From the IMG/VR virus record IMGVR_UViG_3300023180_000487, positions 1 through 20,935 of that record: a DNA stretch of 20,935 nt, one strand, 5' to 3'. Under the pieces are notes generated by a model. It had not been told where the DNA came from. It worked only from the letters and a program-made list of their open reading frames with translations, and ran no database searches. Position 1 is the first letter of the stretch. Every line of letters begins with the position of its first letter. The position numbers and the translations under genes were made by a program. The stretch is from a virus. Shown in pieces: positions 219 to 12,291 of this stretch.

Positions 219-1184
219 ATGTTTGTAAGTGAAATATTATTAGAAGTTGATAGTTCTAGATATATAATGAAGCCGATGTATGGACAAGTTGGCAATTTTT
301 CTAAGCGCCTTAAAGGTTATATGATAATAACTAAGGATGCTCAAGGCAAAACAAAGATACTAGATAGATTCACAGGACCTAACAGTCAAGCACAAGCCCA
401 ACAGAAAGTTAATCAATTGAATGCAGCTGATGCTAAATATGGTCCTAGATCTGCTACACCACAAACAGTTCCGGATGATAAACCTTCCAATGGAGATAAA
501 GAATCTCCAAAGCAAAATAAATCTACAATACCTGAACCTAAAACAGATACTCCTAAAAAACCAGATAGTAAGCTTAAAGGTATAGGTAAAAAAGCACTTG
601 GGATTTTTTTAAAAGGACTTAAATTGCCGTTTGGAGCAACTGGTGCTTCTTTATACTCAGCATTTGCAAACTTTTCTCAACTAGAACCATTATTGGATGA
701 TTGGTTTAAATGGTATAAAATGAACCAATGTTCAATAAAAGATAAAGGTATTACACGAAAAGCTGCAGATGGAACAAAAGTTGTAATTTATTCTGAACTC
801 AACCTTGCACAAAGTAAAATTAGTAATTGGTTAAACAAAGCAGTGCTTGACTTTGCTGCAGAAGTGTTAATTGGTATGTTATTTTTTGTTACTGGTAATT
901 GGTGGCTACGAGGTGCATTATTTGCTGCAGGTGCAACTATTCCTTTTAAAGAGAAACTCGTAGAACAATTCGTTGATGATGATATGGCTGCGGTGCTGGG
1001 CAATTGGATTTGGTTAGAACTTGCTAAAAATAGTGTACTAGCGTCAATGTCGGATATGTGTAATGACATGTCTGAAGCAGAATTAAAAGGTCAGCAAAAC
1101 ATTTATAGGAATCAATTAGTAGAGTGGGTAGAAGAATTAGTTGATCAATTTGTCAAAGACACACCAATGTTTAAAATGTCATAA
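219..1184 (+). CDS. Unrecognised 321-residue protein with one hydrophobic segment
   Basis: I do not recognise this protein. It has three parts. Residues 1-78 are a compact N-terminal region. Residues 79-118 are a low-complexity Pro/Lys/Asp/Ser linker. Residues 119-321 are a helical C-terminal region with a strongly hydrophobic stretch at about 209-243, rich in Phe, Trp, Leu and Ala, which could span a membrane or form a buried helix. There is no N-terminal signal peptide. The start is supported by AGGATAGGAG 6-15 bases upstream and a late promoter box. It lies among late structural genes and is convergent with gp51, and the two stop regions overlap by 6 bases (1179-1184). A virion or late membrane-associated protein is an inference from this position only. 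Confidence 0.85.
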   Translation: MFVSEILLEVDSSRYIMKPMYGQVGNFSKRLKGYMIITKDAQGKTKILDRFTGPNSQAQAQQKVNQLNAADAKYGPRSATPQTVPDDKPSNGDKESPKQNKSTIPEPKTDTPKKPDSKLKGIGKKALGIFLKGLKLPFGATGASLYSAFANFSQLEPLLDDWFKWYKMNQCSIKDKGITRKAADGTKVVIYSELNLAQSKISNWLNKAVLDFAAEVLIGMLFFVTGNWWLRGALFAAGATIPFKEKLVEQFVDDDMAAVLGNWIWLELAKNSVLASMSDMCNDMSEAELKGQQNIYRNQLVEWVEELVDQFVKDTPMFKMS

Positions 1185-1412
1185 AAGCGGTAATCCAGTT
1201 TTAGAAACAGTTTCTATATTCTCTTTTACTATATCACTTATAATTTTCTTATCATCGTATGTTAACGTCATCATTATATCTTCATAATCAACGGCTCCAC
1301 GCATATACCAAATTAATTTAAAATTATTGTATTTTATTTCTTTAATTTCGTTTTCAAGATCAACAAAATATTTTTTTATTCCATCATGATCTAATGCGAG
1401 GAGCCGCGTTCG
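1179..1412 (-). CDS. gp51: gp51-like baseplate hub assembly protein, read by -1 frameshift from gp26
   Basis: The minus-strand frame from 1412 down to a TGA at 1179-1181 gives 77 residues. It contains the stretch KYNNFKLIWYMRGAVDYED and ends KTGLPLL, which I recognise from gp51 proteins of marine T4-like phages (a short helical protein with a W-[F/Y]-M-R-G core). In T4, gp51 acts in baseplate hub assembly and is not a major virion part. There is no ATG, GTG or TTG between the upstream in-frame stop and the conserved region; the first ATG is the Met inside WYMRG, which would remove half the protein. The frame is -1 relative to gp26 and meets it at T_TTT_TTC (1418-1412). The likely product is therefore a gp26-gp51 fusion of 268+77=345 residues. 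A sequencing error in the T run would be the alternative. Confidence 0.75.
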   Translation of the reverse strand, partial: RTRLLALDHDGIKKYFVDLENEIKEIKYNNFKLIWYMRGAVDYEDIMMTLTYDDKKIISDIVKENIETVSKTGLPLL

Positions 1413-2215
1413 AAAAAAGAACTGTAGTCAAGATCTAATTTAGAACTATAATTGTGCCTACATTCTTGATTTGCACACTGAAGAGGTAATAAAGGTAAAG
1501 CCCATTTTTTTGTTAAATTACTTAAACCATTTTTTACAATGTCGTATAGTTCACTATCTGCCGAATGTATAAATTCTTTTATAACTTCATGATCATTTTC
1601 AGCTTCTTCTCCATCTGTTATTTCTACAATGTGCATTAGATTTATATCTAAAGTTAAAGAATTTAAATCTTTATAAAGAGTTGCTAGTACTTCTTCATTA
1701 TTTTCTGCAGTTGCAATATTTTTTTGGATAGCATAATTCCTTTTGCTAACATTTGTTGATTCCTGATATGTTAACGGTCTAAGTATTAAATGTAGATCTT
1801 TGTATTGGATTTTTGTTATTATCTCTAACTCTGAAAAATTTGATAACATATTGTTTAAATCAATATCAAATGTATAAGAATTTTTACATTCTGGACATTC
1901 AGATTCCATTGACATCTGATCTCCGTATGTAGCCATCCTGATCGCAATTAATACCTGTTCAATATCAACAGAGAGTAAATTCCAAGGATTTAAAATTGTA
2001 GGCGCACAACTCTTTATGACTTTTACTGTAGATTCGCCTGTGAATAATGCATCTGGTGTTTTCAACATTATTTCATCCATAGTATTCATACCGAATATAG
2101 GAATTTGTGTATGTTGATTATCTTGTATTGTTAAACTGTTGTAAAAAATTCCTTTACTTGGCAAATCAATAAAAACTTTAGGTTGTCTAGCGTGTTGAGC
2201 TAGGAAATTTTTCAT
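1391..2215 (-). CDS. gp26: gp26-like baseplate hub subunit
   Basis: This 274-residue protein matches the T4 gp26 family (T4-type baseplate protein). Early on it has the conserved stretch VFIDLPSKGIFY, followed by TMDEIMLKTPDALFTGE. It has a Cys-x2-Cys pair at C107/C110 and a second Cys-x4-Cys-x-His group at C247, C252 and H254. Together these could bind one metal ion, which is an inference. T4 gp26 belongs to the central hub of the baseplate. The gene is preceded by a perfect TATAAATA box on its own strand (2250-2243). Just before its TAG it carries an in-phase slippery heptamer that leads into gp51, so the 274-residue form would be the non-shifted product. It is transcribed away from the tape-measure-like gene. 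Confidence 0.85.
   Translation of the reverse strand: MKNFLAQHARQPKVFIDLPSKGIFYNSLTIQDNQHTQIPIFGMNTMDEIMLKTPDALFTGESTVKVIKSCAPTILNPWNLLSVDIEQVLIAIRMATYGDQMSMESECPECKNSYTFDIDLNNMLSNFSELEIITKIQYKDLHLILRPLTYQESTNVSKRNYAIQKNIATAENNEEVLATLYKDLNSLTLDINLMHIVEITDGEEAENDHEVIKEFIHSADSELYDIVKNGLSNLTKKWALPLLPLQCANQECRHNYSSKLDLDYSSFFERGSSH
1412..1418 (-). promoter_or_regulatory. Candidate -1 ribosomal frameshift site T_TTT_TTC
   Basis: Read on the minus strand in the gp26 frame (codons TCT TTT TTC), the heptamer fits the X_XXY_YYZ pattern for tandem -1 slippage. Slippage moves the ribosome into exactly the frame that encodes gp51, six codons before the gp26 stop. Only a weak 3-bp GC stem (GCG/CGC, with a 6-base loop) is visible just downstream, and no strong stimulatory structure was seen. 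Confidence 0.65.
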
Positions 2216-2283: not shown

Positions 2284-4917
2284 ATGGCAGACCAATTTAC
2301 ACAAGATCAATTAAATCAAATTTCAAAAGCCATAACTGATGGATTAGCTGACGGATTCAGAAGGATAGATTTTAATAAATTAAGTAGGAATGACAGCAAA
2401 GATTCAAAGGATACGTTTGGTTTTCAGGATTTTAGAGATAATTTTACAAGTCAAGCCGACGGAATATTATCAAATTTTGGCAATGCCTTATCGTCTAAAC
2501 AAGGTGATATACTAGGTTTCTATGGTAACATATTAAGTGCAAGTACAGGAATAGCTGACTTAATACCAGGTATAGGACAGTTATCAGAAACTTTTAAATC
2601 TTTAGGGACTTCCGGTTTACGATATCTAGTAGAATCAAATGAAGCCTTTAAATTTTTAAGTAAATCTGGAGCAGGATTTAACGGCGATTTAATGAGAATT
2701 AGGAAAACCAGTGCAGATTTAAATATGGATTTAGATGATTTTACTAACTTCATAACAAGGAATTCTGAATCACTTGCTGTGTTAGGTGGAACTGTAGATT
2801 CTGGCGCCGATAAAATTGCAGGTTATTATCAAAGTTTACTAGATACTGGTGTTATAGAAAGATTTAAAAGACTAGGTTACACCGCAGAAGAATCTGCAGA
2901 ATTTGTTGCAAAAAATATGAGCCAGCAAGCTAGGGCAATGTATGTTCAAGGTTTATCAGAAACTGAAAGAAATGACCAAATGTCTAGATATGCAAAAAAT
3001 TTACAAATTTTAGCAAAACTTACTGGTCAAGATGTAGATGCTTTACAGGAAAAATTAAGGAATGAAAATTTAGCAGGTGAAGAAATTGCTAAAAATAGAA
3101 TGTTGGAAAAACGTGGTATAGCAAACGCACAGACAAGCTATAATACCTTTAAACAAATGTTTGAGGACATGCCAGATCTTCAAAGACTAATAACTCAACT
3201 TTACACAAGACAAGCACCGCTAGATGAAACTACCGCAGGATTAACATCTACACTGCCTACTGTAACTGCAGCAATTAAAACTGCATTAAACATTGAAACT
3301 GGTACAGGAGATATTTTTGAAGATAGTGCTTTAATCCAAGGAAAATTACAAGAAGCTCTAGACAGAGATTCTGTATTACAAACTGCAATGCTTGGAAATG
3401 CAAGTTCGGCCACGCAAGCATTAGCTGATTTACTTGTGCAAGGTGACAAACAGTCACAAAAACTTGCTGCATTAAGATTACAAGAGGAATATAAAGGATT
3501 AGATAATGCTCAAATTTTAAATAAGTTGTATAGCGATGCAAATGAAGCAACAAGGAATCAATTGGACACTAATGAAGGTTTACAAAACACAATGAACGAA
3601 CTTGATAAAGCTCAAAGAGCAACAATATCAACTGTCCAAAATTCAATAATTGCACTTTTTCAAAATGACCAAATAAAAAATATAGCAGAAGAAATTAGAA
3701 TAACCGCAAGTACCATACCTGAATCATTAAAACATATAGAAGAAACTTATTTTAAAAGGTTATTGCAAAGCCTAGAGAAAACTACAGACATTTTAGGAAA
3801 AGTTACGCTATCAGTATTTGATGAATTGAAATTATCATTACTAGGAGCTATACAAATAAAACCAGGAGTAGAATACCTTCCGAAAGATTTGTACGGAGAA
3901 ATTAAAAAAGACATTGATACTAATCAAACTACAAATTTAGAAAAATTTACTGAATTAGGATTCCTTGTTAGGGAAGAAGGCAAAAATAAAAAACCTAGCT
4001 ACACTATAAATCCTGAATTCAAAACTGATAATCGGTTATCAGAAAACCTAATTTTTGTATTAGACCGTATAGAAACAAAATTATCAGAACAACGTGCAAC
4101 AGGTGTAGATCCAGATACGTTATTAGGTAGCGACGAAAGACAAGAAGAGACAAGAGAGATTTCAATTCAAGGGCTTGAACAATTAAATAAACATTTAAGT
4201 AATTTTCCAAATATATCTAAATTAGTTACTGACCTTGCTAATAAAAATAATAATGAATTAGAAGGAGAATCGGTTATATTATCAAATTTACTTAAAGAAA
4301 CAACAAAAAGCATTAAGACAATTATAAATTCTAAAGATAAAGAAGATTTTTCATTGGAAAAATCTGTTAATTCTTTATTACAAACTTTGCAAAAAGAAGT
4401 AGAGGGTAAATTAAAAGATGATCCTGAAAACAAGACTTTGAATCTGCTTAAACAGAAATTAAGTCCTAAGATAGAAGTATCTGTAGAGGCTCCTAAACCA
4501 TCTACGATAGAGAGCGTAGAGCAACAAGATATAACTGGAGATTATACGTCTGCTGTAGATAAAAATACACTTGCAATACAAGGACTTACAGGAACACTTG
4601 CAACTACAGATTTAAATGTTTCTATAGCCAATCCAATAGTCACAGTAGATACAACTGAATTAAAATCTGTGCTAAATACGTTAGTAAGAGATTCTGCTCT
4701 GCAAGTTGCAAATAATACTACTGAACCAATACCTGAGAAAGCTGAAACACCGAAAGAGAACATAGTGGAAAATACAAATAAATTTACTACATTACGTTCC
4801 TCAACATCCAGTCAAACCGATAAAGATTTTCAAGTCAATATGCTTGCTCAAATGAAAAGAACAAACGAATTATTACAAAAGCAAAATAGGCATCTGGAAA
4901 GCTTGTTTTCTGCTTAA
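2284..4917 (+). CDS. Candidate tail tape measure / large structural protein
   Basis: This is an 877-residue, mostly helical protein. The N-terminal third has Gly/Ala-rich hydrophobic stretches around residues 75-125. The middle has a region typical of large structural proteins in marine T4-like phages (YAKNLQILAKLTGQDVDALQ). The C-terminal third is charged and coiled-coil-like, ending in a Lys/Asn/Gln helix. T4 gp29, the tape measure, is shorter (590 residues). The tape-measure call rests on size, helical repeats, and the neighbouring gp26-gp51, which in T4 belong to the same hub assembly pathway. An internal head or other structural role is possible because gp20 follows 15 bases later. The start is supported by AAAGGA seven bases upstream and a late promoter box at 2226. 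Confidence 0.6.
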   Translation: MADQFTQDQLNQISKAITDGLADGFRRIDFNKLSRNDSKDSKDTFGFQDFRDNFTSQADGILSNFGNALSSKQGDILGFYGNILSASTGIADLIPGIGQLSETFKSLGTSGLRYLVESNEAFKFLSKSGAGFNGDLMRIRKTSADLNMDLDDFTNFITRNSESLAVLGGTVDSGADKIAGYYQSLLDTGVIERFKRLGYTAEESAEFVAKNMSQQARAMYVQGLSETERNDQMSRYAKNLQILAKLTGQDVDALQEKLRNENLAGEEIAKNRMLEKRGIANAQTSYNTFKQMFEDMPDLQRLITQLYTRQAPLDETTAGLTSTLPTVTAAIKTALNIETGTGDIFEDSALIQGKLQEALDRDSVLQTAMLGNASSATQALADLLVQGDKQSQKLAALRLQEEYKGLDNAQILNKLYSDANEATRNQLDTNEGLQNTMNELDKAQRATISTVQNSIIALFQNDQIKNIAEEIRITASTIPESLKHIEETYFKRLLQSLEKTTDILGKVTLSVFDELKLSLLGAIQIKPGVEYLPKDLYGEIKKDIDTNQTTNLEKFTELGFLVREEGKNKKPSYTINPEFKTDNRLSENLIFVLDRIETKLSEQRATGVDPDTLLGSDERQEETREISIQGLEQLNKHLSNFPNISKLVTDLANKNNNELEGESVILSNLLKETTKSIKTIINSKDKEDFSLEKSVNSLLQTLQKEVEGKLKDDPENKTLNLLKQKLSPKIEVSVEAPKPSTIESVEQQDITGDYTSAVDKNTLAIQGLTGTLATTDLNVSIANPIVTVDTTELKSVLNTLVRDSALQVANNTTEPIPEKAETPKENIVENTNKFTTLRSSTSSQTDKDFQVNMLAQMKRTNELLQKQNRHLESLFSA

Positions 4918-7770: not shown

Positions 7771-8898
7771 ATGGCGCAAAGAAAAACCAAAAAAACTGTT
7801 AAAGAAACAGCAAAAACACCAAGGAAAAAAATTGTTGAATCTAAAGACAAATTTCAACAAATGCTTGAATATTTAGTAAACGAAGACAATGCAAAAGCAG
7901 AAGAATTATTTCATGATATTGTAGTAGAAAAATCAAGACAAATTTATGAAAATATCCTTGCTGAAGAAGTAGATGAGTCAGATGATGAAGAAGTAGATGA
8001 GTCAGATGATGAAGAAGTAGATGAGTCAGATGATGACGAATTAGACGAATCAAAAGAAGATGATGAAGAAGTAGATGAGTCAGATGATGAAGAAGTAGAT
8101 GAGTCAGATGATGAAGAAGTTGACGAAAACTTTAATTTAGATGAATTTGAAGTTGAAGGTGAACCAGAAATGGACATGGATGCAATGGGTGGAGATCCAA
8201 CTGATGACATGGAAATGGATATGGACGACGAAGAAGGCGACATGGATATGGATGCTGACATGGGCGGAGACGAGCCTGTTACACAAGACGACATAAAAGA
8301 TCTAGAAGCAGAATTAGCCGATCTTAAAGCAGAATTTGAAGAACTAATGGCAGATCAAGATATGGGCGACATGGATATGGACGACGAAGAAGGCGACATG
8401 GATATGGACGACGAAGAAGGCGACATGGATATGGACGACGAAGAAGGCGACATGGATATGGACGACGATGAAATGCCAGAAGAAAATTTTAGTTATGAGT
8501 CAAAAGAAAATATGAGTTCAGCTGAATTAATGAGAGAATATGTTAACAAGATTGGCGGAGAGCAATATCATCAATTTGGTAAAATGGGTGATAATGGAGC
8601 GAATTCAAAATCTGTAGTAGCTGGAAAAAATGATATGGGTGGTACAAGTGCTAACATTGTAAGTGGTACTACTGAAAATGGCGTAGAAGCAGGAAAAGGA
8701 AATTTACACGGAAATCCTGTAAGTGACCAAAATCCAAAAGATATGAATACTGGAAATGTAAACGTACCTGGAAATAAAAAAGCTCCAGCTTTAAAGCCAC
8801 AGTCTGCAGGACATGGTGCTGAAAGAAAAAGCAAACCAGAAACTGCTGACAAAAGTGCGGGACCAGTAATTAATGGTGCCCCAAATAGAGCCAAATAA
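7771..8898 (+). CDS. gp67: gp67-like prohead core protein with expanded acidic repeats
   Basis: This 375-residue protein has a basic N-terminus followed by a helix-rich stretch (FQQMLEYLVNEDNAKAEELF, then IVVEKSRQIYENILAEE) and a long acidic region. T4 gp67 has the same plan in only 80 residues: a helical start and an acidic tail. Here the acidic part is built from EEVDESDD repeats (five copies within residues 65-119) and GDMDMDDEE repeats (four copies at residues 199-234). Between them lies a short coiled-coil-like helix. The C-terminal 120 residues are Gly/Asn/Lys-rich and probably disordered. Prohead core proteins are cut by gp21. The gene lies directly before gp21, as in T4, and has a clear TAGGAG binding site 6 bases before the ATG. 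The assignment rests on layout and composition more than on strong identity. Confidence 0.7.
   Translation: MAQRKTKKTVKETAKTPRKKIVESKDKFQQMLEYLVNEDNAKAEELFHDIVVEKSRQIYENILAEEVDESDDEEVDESDDEEVDESDDDELDESKEDDEEVDESDDEEVDESDDEEVDENFNLDEFEVEGEPEMDMDAMGGDPTDDMEMDMDDEEGDMDMDADMGGDEPVTQDDIKDLEAELADLKAEFEELMADQDMGDMDMDDEEGDMDMDDEEGDMDMDDEEGDMDMDDDEMPEENFSYESKENMSSAELMREYVNKIGGEQYHQFGKMGDNGANSKSVVAGKNDMGGTSANIVSGTTENGVEAGKGNLHGNPVSDQNPKDMNTGNVNVPGNKKAPALKPQSAGHGAERKSKPETADKSAGPVINGAPNRAK
7963..8127 (+). repeat. 24-bp tandem coding repeat (EEVDESDD)
   Basis: The unit GAAGAAGTAGATGAGTCAGATGAT occurs three times in a row (7963-8034). A degenerate 30-base copy follows, then two more perfect copies (8065-8112) and a partial one. 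The identity is at the DNA level, which points to recent expansion by slippage or unequal recombination. Confidence 0.9.
8365..8472 (+). repeat. 27-bp tandem coding repeat (GDMDMDDEE)
   Basis: Four head-to-tail 27-base units start with GGCGACATGGATATGGACGA. The first three are identical and the last diverges only at its 3' end. A partial relative occurs at about 8206-8250. All are in frame within the gp67-like gene. Confidence 0.9.
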
Positions 8899-11904: not shown

Positions 11905-12291
11905 ATGGCTTACACAGATGCAGTATTAGAACATTATAATAATCCTAAAAATGTTGGCAGTTTAGACAAATCAGCAGCAGATGTTGGTACAGGACTCGTT
12001 GGTGCACCGGAATGCGGTGACGTTATGAAACTACAAATTCGTGTAGAAAATGATAGAATTGTTGATGCTAAGTTCAAGACGTTTGGGTGCGGATCGGCTA
12101 TTGCAAGTAGCAGTTTAGCAACAGAATGGGTAAAGGGCAAGACAATAAATGAAGCTTTTGAAATTAAAAATACAGAAATAGTAGAAGAATTAGCACTACC
12201 TCCAGTAAAAATCCATTGTTCAGTTTTAGCAGAAGATGCAATAAAAGCAGCAATAAAAGATTACAGGAGTAAGCAATGCACAGAGAATTAG
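11905..12291 (+). CDS. iscU: IscU iron-sulphur cluster scaffold (phage-borne)
   Basis: This 128-residue protein is a full-length IscU, the same length as E. coli IscU. All key residues are present: Cys37 and Asp39 in GAPECGDVMKLQI, Cys62 in KTFGCGSAIASSS, and His104-Cys105 in LPPVKIHC. LPPVK is the HscA chaperone recognition motif. IscU receives sulphur from IscS, builds [2Fe-2S] clusters, and passes them on. No iscS, hscA/B or fdx is present, so it would have to work with host partners, and HscA binding is plausible from LPPVK. It sits in the late region after the gp23 terminator, with TATGGAGAAAAAACC before the ATG. It is closest in appearance to proteobacterial IscU, which suggests acquisition from such a host. 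Codon use is as AT-rich as its neighbours. Confidence 0.95.
   Translation: MAYTDAVLEHYNNPKNVGSLDKSAADVGTGLVGAPECGDVMKLQIRVENDRIVDAKFKTFGCGSAIASSSLATEWVKGKTINEAFEIKNTEIVEELALPPVKIHCSVLAEDAIKAAIKDYRSKQCTEN

Follow-up and report, generated by a model that had tools for sequence, protein, structure and literature searches.

The DNA analysed here (the window) is 20,935 nucleotides long and corresponds to positions 1-20,935 of the IMG/VR virus record IMGVR_UViG_3300023180_000487; all coordinates are the window's own. It comes from a T4-like phage of a marine lineage related to PA5oct and RaK2, and its gp23 capsid protein is nearest to those of Sinorhizobium phage Phosso, Vibrio phage 2.275.O and PA5oct (69-73% identity). 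The locus of interest consists of a gp26-like gene, a slippery heptamer close to its 3' end, an open reading frame that runs on from the heptamer in the -1 frame, and a divergent neighbour (Table 1).

Table 1. Features of the gp26 locus in the window.
Feature	Position	Strand	Description
gp26-like ORF (TAC-N)	1391..2215	-	274 aa; stop TAG 1393-1391; PF12322, phrog_150, T4 gp26/gp51 profile
Slippery heptamer T_TTT_TTC	1412..1418	-	X_XXY_YYZ phase of gp26; kept across relatives
-1 frame ORF (TAC-C, 'gp51')	1179..1418	-	79 codons from heptamer; stop TGA 1181-1179
First ATG of -1 frame	1302..1304	-	offset +114 nt; inside conserved W-Y/F-M-R-G motif
877-aa ORF, probable tape measure or tail structural protein	2284..4917	+	divergent neighbour of gp26

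At its 3' end, the gp26 frame reads TCT (1420-1418) TTT (1417-1415) TTC (1414-1412) GAA CGC GGC TCC TCG CAT TAG, with six sense codons between the heptamer and the stop. An earlier note on this DNA had described a heptamer in the correct phase at this distance from the gp26 stop, a gp51 frame that is -1 to gp26, and a fusion of 345 residues. Coordinates and phase were verified directly, as was the predicted length of the fusion (268 + 77 = 345 aa). A TGA located 12 nt upstream of the heptamer closes the -1 frame, so that the two frames are both open over a short overlap only; downstream, the -1 frame remains open until its own stop. A 321-aa ORF (219-1184, + strand) runs towards the -1 ORF and overlaps its end by a few bases, and a search of phage records gave no match to it.

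The divergent 877-aa ORF is similar to ORF088 of RaK2, which is annotated there as tape-measure-like, and the order of gp20, structural protein and divergent gp26 is common to the window, RaK2 and PA5oct. Judged by sequence, this ORF is probably a tape measure or tail structural protein. The earlier note had pointed to the tail assembly chaperones of many phages, which use such a shift next to the tape-measure gene; the putative tape-measure gene of the window does adjoin gp26, but it is divergent rather than immediately downstream.

The identity of the gp26 product is indicated by several profile comparisons. It matches the Pfam family PF12322 (T4_baseplate) with an E-value of 1e-10 and 42 bits (cut-off 24.5) and the baseplate hub family phrog_150 with an E-value of 7e-11, while its own profile aligns to the T4 gp26/gp51 family at 97.9% (hhalign, E 5e-13). 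In a viral structure library, its AlphaFold model (pLDDT 86) finds matches among predicted baseplate hub proteins. A search of the PDB with the same model returned nothing at E <= 0.001, and thus no link to solved TAC (tail assembly chaperone) folds is demonstrated. The TAC-C part is predicted to form helices, and a fold search with its model gave just weak matches to uncharacterised phage proteins. In Pfam and PHROG, it drew chance-level names only and did not match phrog_634, the cyanophage baseplate hub assembly catalyst (gp51). Profile-profile comparison with cyanophage gp51 was marginal (probability 13%, P 0.002), with a plausible match over 33 columns. The 'gp51' of the window is the TAC-C part only, and its agreement with known gp51 lies more in position than in sequence. 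The label used in the earlier note holds for position, although T4 gp51 is a protein with both N and C parts and only the C-terminal extension is present here.

Chance alone supplies many slippery-type heptamers in the AT-rich window, where 56 occur in phase in 6,576 codons (about 0.9 per 100), a second in-phase T_TTT_TTC among them in the middle of gp20. The heptamer of a single sequence is therefore weak evidence, and the earlier note had proposed an alignment of junctions from relatives as a check. Scans of IMG/VR with the gp26 sequence and with profiles of both gp26 and the -1 ORF yielded 174 loci with a readable junction, which reduce to 129 distinct junctions of 150 nt. All 129 have TTT TTC in phase, with a run of exactly six T followed by C and then G, and the heptamer lies in phase with the upstream gp26 frame at 80 of 80 loci retrieved by the -1 ORF alone, a search that is blind to codon choice at the heptamer; because the 174 loci are kin and not phylogenetically independent, neither count is one of independent trials. 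The gp26 proteins of these loci are as little as 34% identical to that of the window. Codon usage does not explain the invariant TTT-TTC, since phenylalanine elsewhere in the relatives' gp26 genes is encoded by TTT 978 times and by TTC 140 times (87% TTT). The C and the G may be constrained in part by an overlapping arginine codon of the -1 frame, and such a constraint in itself implies reading of that frame. As a matter of sequence comparison, the 129 junctions are decisive against a chance heptamer.

The pattern extends to isolates whose gp26 is only 24-28% identical. Klebsiella phage RaK2, Pseudomonas phage PA5oct, Agrobacterium phage Atu_ph07 and Vibrio phage 2.275.O all have an in-phase T_TTT_TTC at the end of gp26, as do cyanophages S-PM2 and P-SSM2, Vibrio phage KVP40 and Delftia phage phiW-14. 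At this place, T_TTT_TTT occurs instead in Pelagibacter phage HTVC008M and Sinorhizobium phage phiM12, within runs of eight and seven T, respectively. Eight of these ten named T4-superfamily phages of the same layout thus carry T_TTT_TTC and two carry T_TTT_TTT. The gp26/gp51 pairs of the cyanophages, KVP40 and HTVC008M are like that of the window in combining one of these heptamers at the end of gp26 with a conserved -1 ORF. No fusion is annotated in the records of RaK2, PA5oct, Atu_ph07 and 2.275.O. Those of S-PM2, KVP40 and HTVC008M treat gp51 as a gene apart despite the in-phase slippery heptamer that ends gp26, and this public annotation probably misses a gp26-gp51 fusion.

Elements that might stimulate slippage vary within the group. 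RNA structure downstream of the window's own site is not above that of shuffled sequences (fold z -0.8). An SD-like element lies ahead of the heptamer in P-SSM2, S-PM2, HTVC008M, phiM12 and KVP40, whereas the window's site has none, and such elements are not enriched in its clade (2% vs 6% background). A sister subclade has a 10-bp stem (GCCTAA...TTAGGC) starting 6 nt past the heptamer. Its paired fraction of 98.9% of cells is inflated, as the sequences were picked for forming the stem; the informative part of the result is the compensatory changes, in that 4 of 10 pairs have changed on both sides and no shuffle reached the observed covariation score.

A fusion could also be made by transcriptional slippage on the run of six T, without ribosomal frameshifting. 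The presence of a T-run at the junction, lengthened in HTVC008M and phiM12, is in keeping with this. Polymerase slippage, however, usually needs longer runs and is independent of codon phase, which fits poorly with a run of constant length that keeps the same codon phase and is always followed by C. The stem of the sister subclade, at its distance from the heptamer, fits stimulation of ribosomes. Transcriptional slippage is very unlikely to be the source of the fusion.

Whether the -1 frame encodes protein was assessed on 19 dereplicated loci that are less than 95% identical in the TAC-C region. Across these, the -1 frame contains no stops and has a mean pN/pS of 0.52; the other two frames have pN/pS values of 0.85 and 1.17, with 4.9 and 8.5 stops per sequence. 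The length of the -1 ORF is nearly constant among relatives (77-79 codons), and conservation in the TAC-C alignment starts at the heptamer. Upstream of the conserved ATG, pN/pS in the -1 frame is 0.57, which argues that this stretch, too, is translated. By this measure, the -1 frame is under purifying selection at the protein level from before any possible start codon.

These results bear on the possibility that gp51 is an independent gene, initiated at a non-canonical start or at the internal ATG, beside an incidental heptamer. The separate gp51 entries after the gp26 stop in the S-PM2, KVP40 and HTVC008M records favour such a gene. The earlier note had nevertheless seen no early gp51 start in the window, and a start-codon scan bears this out: the first of any ATG, GTG or TTG in the -1 ORF is the conserved internal ATG at 1304, and initiation there would leave out the conserved first half of TAC-C. 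The same holds more widely: the nearest relatives of the window, and likewise 32 of the 80 loci, have none of these codons before +110 of the -1 ORF, and PA5oct lacks them throughout. An independent gene would account neither for conservation that begins at the heptamer and selection that acts ahead of the ATG, nor for the in-phase TTT TTC of every junction, and we regard it as extremely improbable.

An assembly or sequencing error in the T-run, splitting one continuous gene, would be in character for a homopolymer, a classic site of error. Three further contigs from separate metagenomes have a junction identical to the window's, which makes an assembly error at this T-run unlikely; the run length is moreover invariant over the 129 junctions and recurs in isolate genomes, and the 0-frame stop is present in every case, so that conservation across many genomes effectively refutes this explanation. 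A degrading pseudogene or chance overlap, for which the frequency of slippery-type heptamers in the window might speak, is effectively refuted by the selection analysis, given the low pN/pS, absence of stops and near-constant length of the -1 frame.

A programmed -1 shift joining gp26 and gp51, as the earlier note had proposed, is thus supported at the level of sequence by the conserved heptamer, the start-less and protein-coding -1 ORF under purifying selection, and an N part homologous to T4 gp26/gp51. With high confidence, we interpret the locus as a tail assembly chaperone of the T4-superfamily type, in which gp26 would be TAC-N and the 345-residue -1 product TAC-NC. Since TAC-C lacks a start codon, a conventional route leads to it only as part of the fusion. 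Most ribosomes would read gp26 to its TAG and produce TAC-N (274 aa). A minority would slip back by one base on T_TTT_TTC, tRNA-Phe moving from TTT TTC to pair with TTT TTT, and would continue in the -1 frame to the TGA at 1181, producing TAC-NC (345 aa). In lambda, the tail assembly chaperone gpG/gpGT exists in a short and a long form generated by -1 frameshifting. By analogy, TAC-N and TAC-NC would act as chaperones for the tape-measure protein while the tail is assembled and would not form part of the virion. The occurrence of slippage, its rate and the chaperone role are inferred.

The TACs of lambda (gpG/gpGT), P2 (E/E+E') and the Vandenendeviridae (phage Adele) have a short and a -1-extended form encoded near the tape measure, much like the two forms predicted for the window beside its tape-measure candidate. 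They differ from it in their slippery sites, and the window is distinct in the divergent orientation of its tape-measure candidate. Frameshifting is reportedly conserved in several T4-like groups according to an earlier abstract, in which T4 is said to use genes 26 and 51. Among T4-like phages, the idea of a TAC frameshift has already been proposed, and the window is a strong further case. The assignment of TAC genes in T4-like phages is that of Vladimirov, Gautam and Davidson (2022, Virology 566:9), who are cited for T4-like phages with separate TAC genes in PMC10885494, and for poly-T slippery sites in the TAC-N genes of T4-like phages in PMC12846349. The tie to the general tail-chaperone scheme that the earlier note had drawn is accordingly supported but, to judge by these citing passages, is not a new insight, as the link was already published. 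The window shares with the T4-like TACs of that work a gp26-family TAC-N, a poly-T slippery site and a -1 extension as TAC-C; it differs in the missing start codon of TAC-C and in the phage group, a marine lineage related to PA5oct and RaK2.

Phage T4 itself is arranged differently. The N-domain encoded by its genes 26 and 51 is homologous to the window's gp26, with PF12322 in both, but the two are separate, divergent genes, each matching PF12322 over the whole profile, and T4 gene 26 has no heptamer (TTC TTT GAG). PF12322 spans the first 200 residues of T4 gp51 end to end, which makes T4 gp51 a separate gene with an N part and a C-terminal extension. In Campylobacter phage CPX, two PF12322 genes follow in succession, the second with a longer C-terminal part; they look like tandem TAC-N and TAC-NC genes, unlike the divergent pair of T4. 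In the piece of Rhodothermus phage RM378 that was examined (1295-2174), the gp26-like gene ends TCC TTT TTT TGG AAT AAG TTA TGA, and a TAC-C-like ORF runs on in the +1 (= -2) frame instead of the -1 frame. A fusion in RM378 would require a shift of +1 or -2, or else slippage at the run of seven T.

A broader reading, on which we are evenly divided, is that in one branch of the T4 superfamily (marine phages and jumbo phages of the PA5oct/RaK2 type) expression of TAC-NC has become locked to a near-immutable U_UUU_UUC, with a downstream hairpin specific to a subclade and no independent initiation of gp51. Together with T4, CPX and RM378, this branch would form a series of distinct two-form solutions. 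The window offers an unusually clean, start-codon-free example of the proposed TAC frameshift in T4-superfamily phages. The small -1 tails beside gp26 in genomes of the RaK2 and PA5oct types would be unannotated parts of fusions, rather than separate genes or intergenic DNA, and the gp26/gp51 annotation of many marine and jumbo phages would be corrected. This also supports the view that the separate genes 26 and 51 of T4 are a derived exception.

Elsewhere in the window, an ORF with acidic repeats (DDEEVDES, MDMDDEEGD) sits between gp20 and gp21 (7771-8898, + strand) and has no match in Pfam. Directly 3' of the gp23 capsid gene (11905-12291, + strand) is a complete IscU/NifU_N-like iron-sulfur scaffold protein (PF01592, 181 bits).
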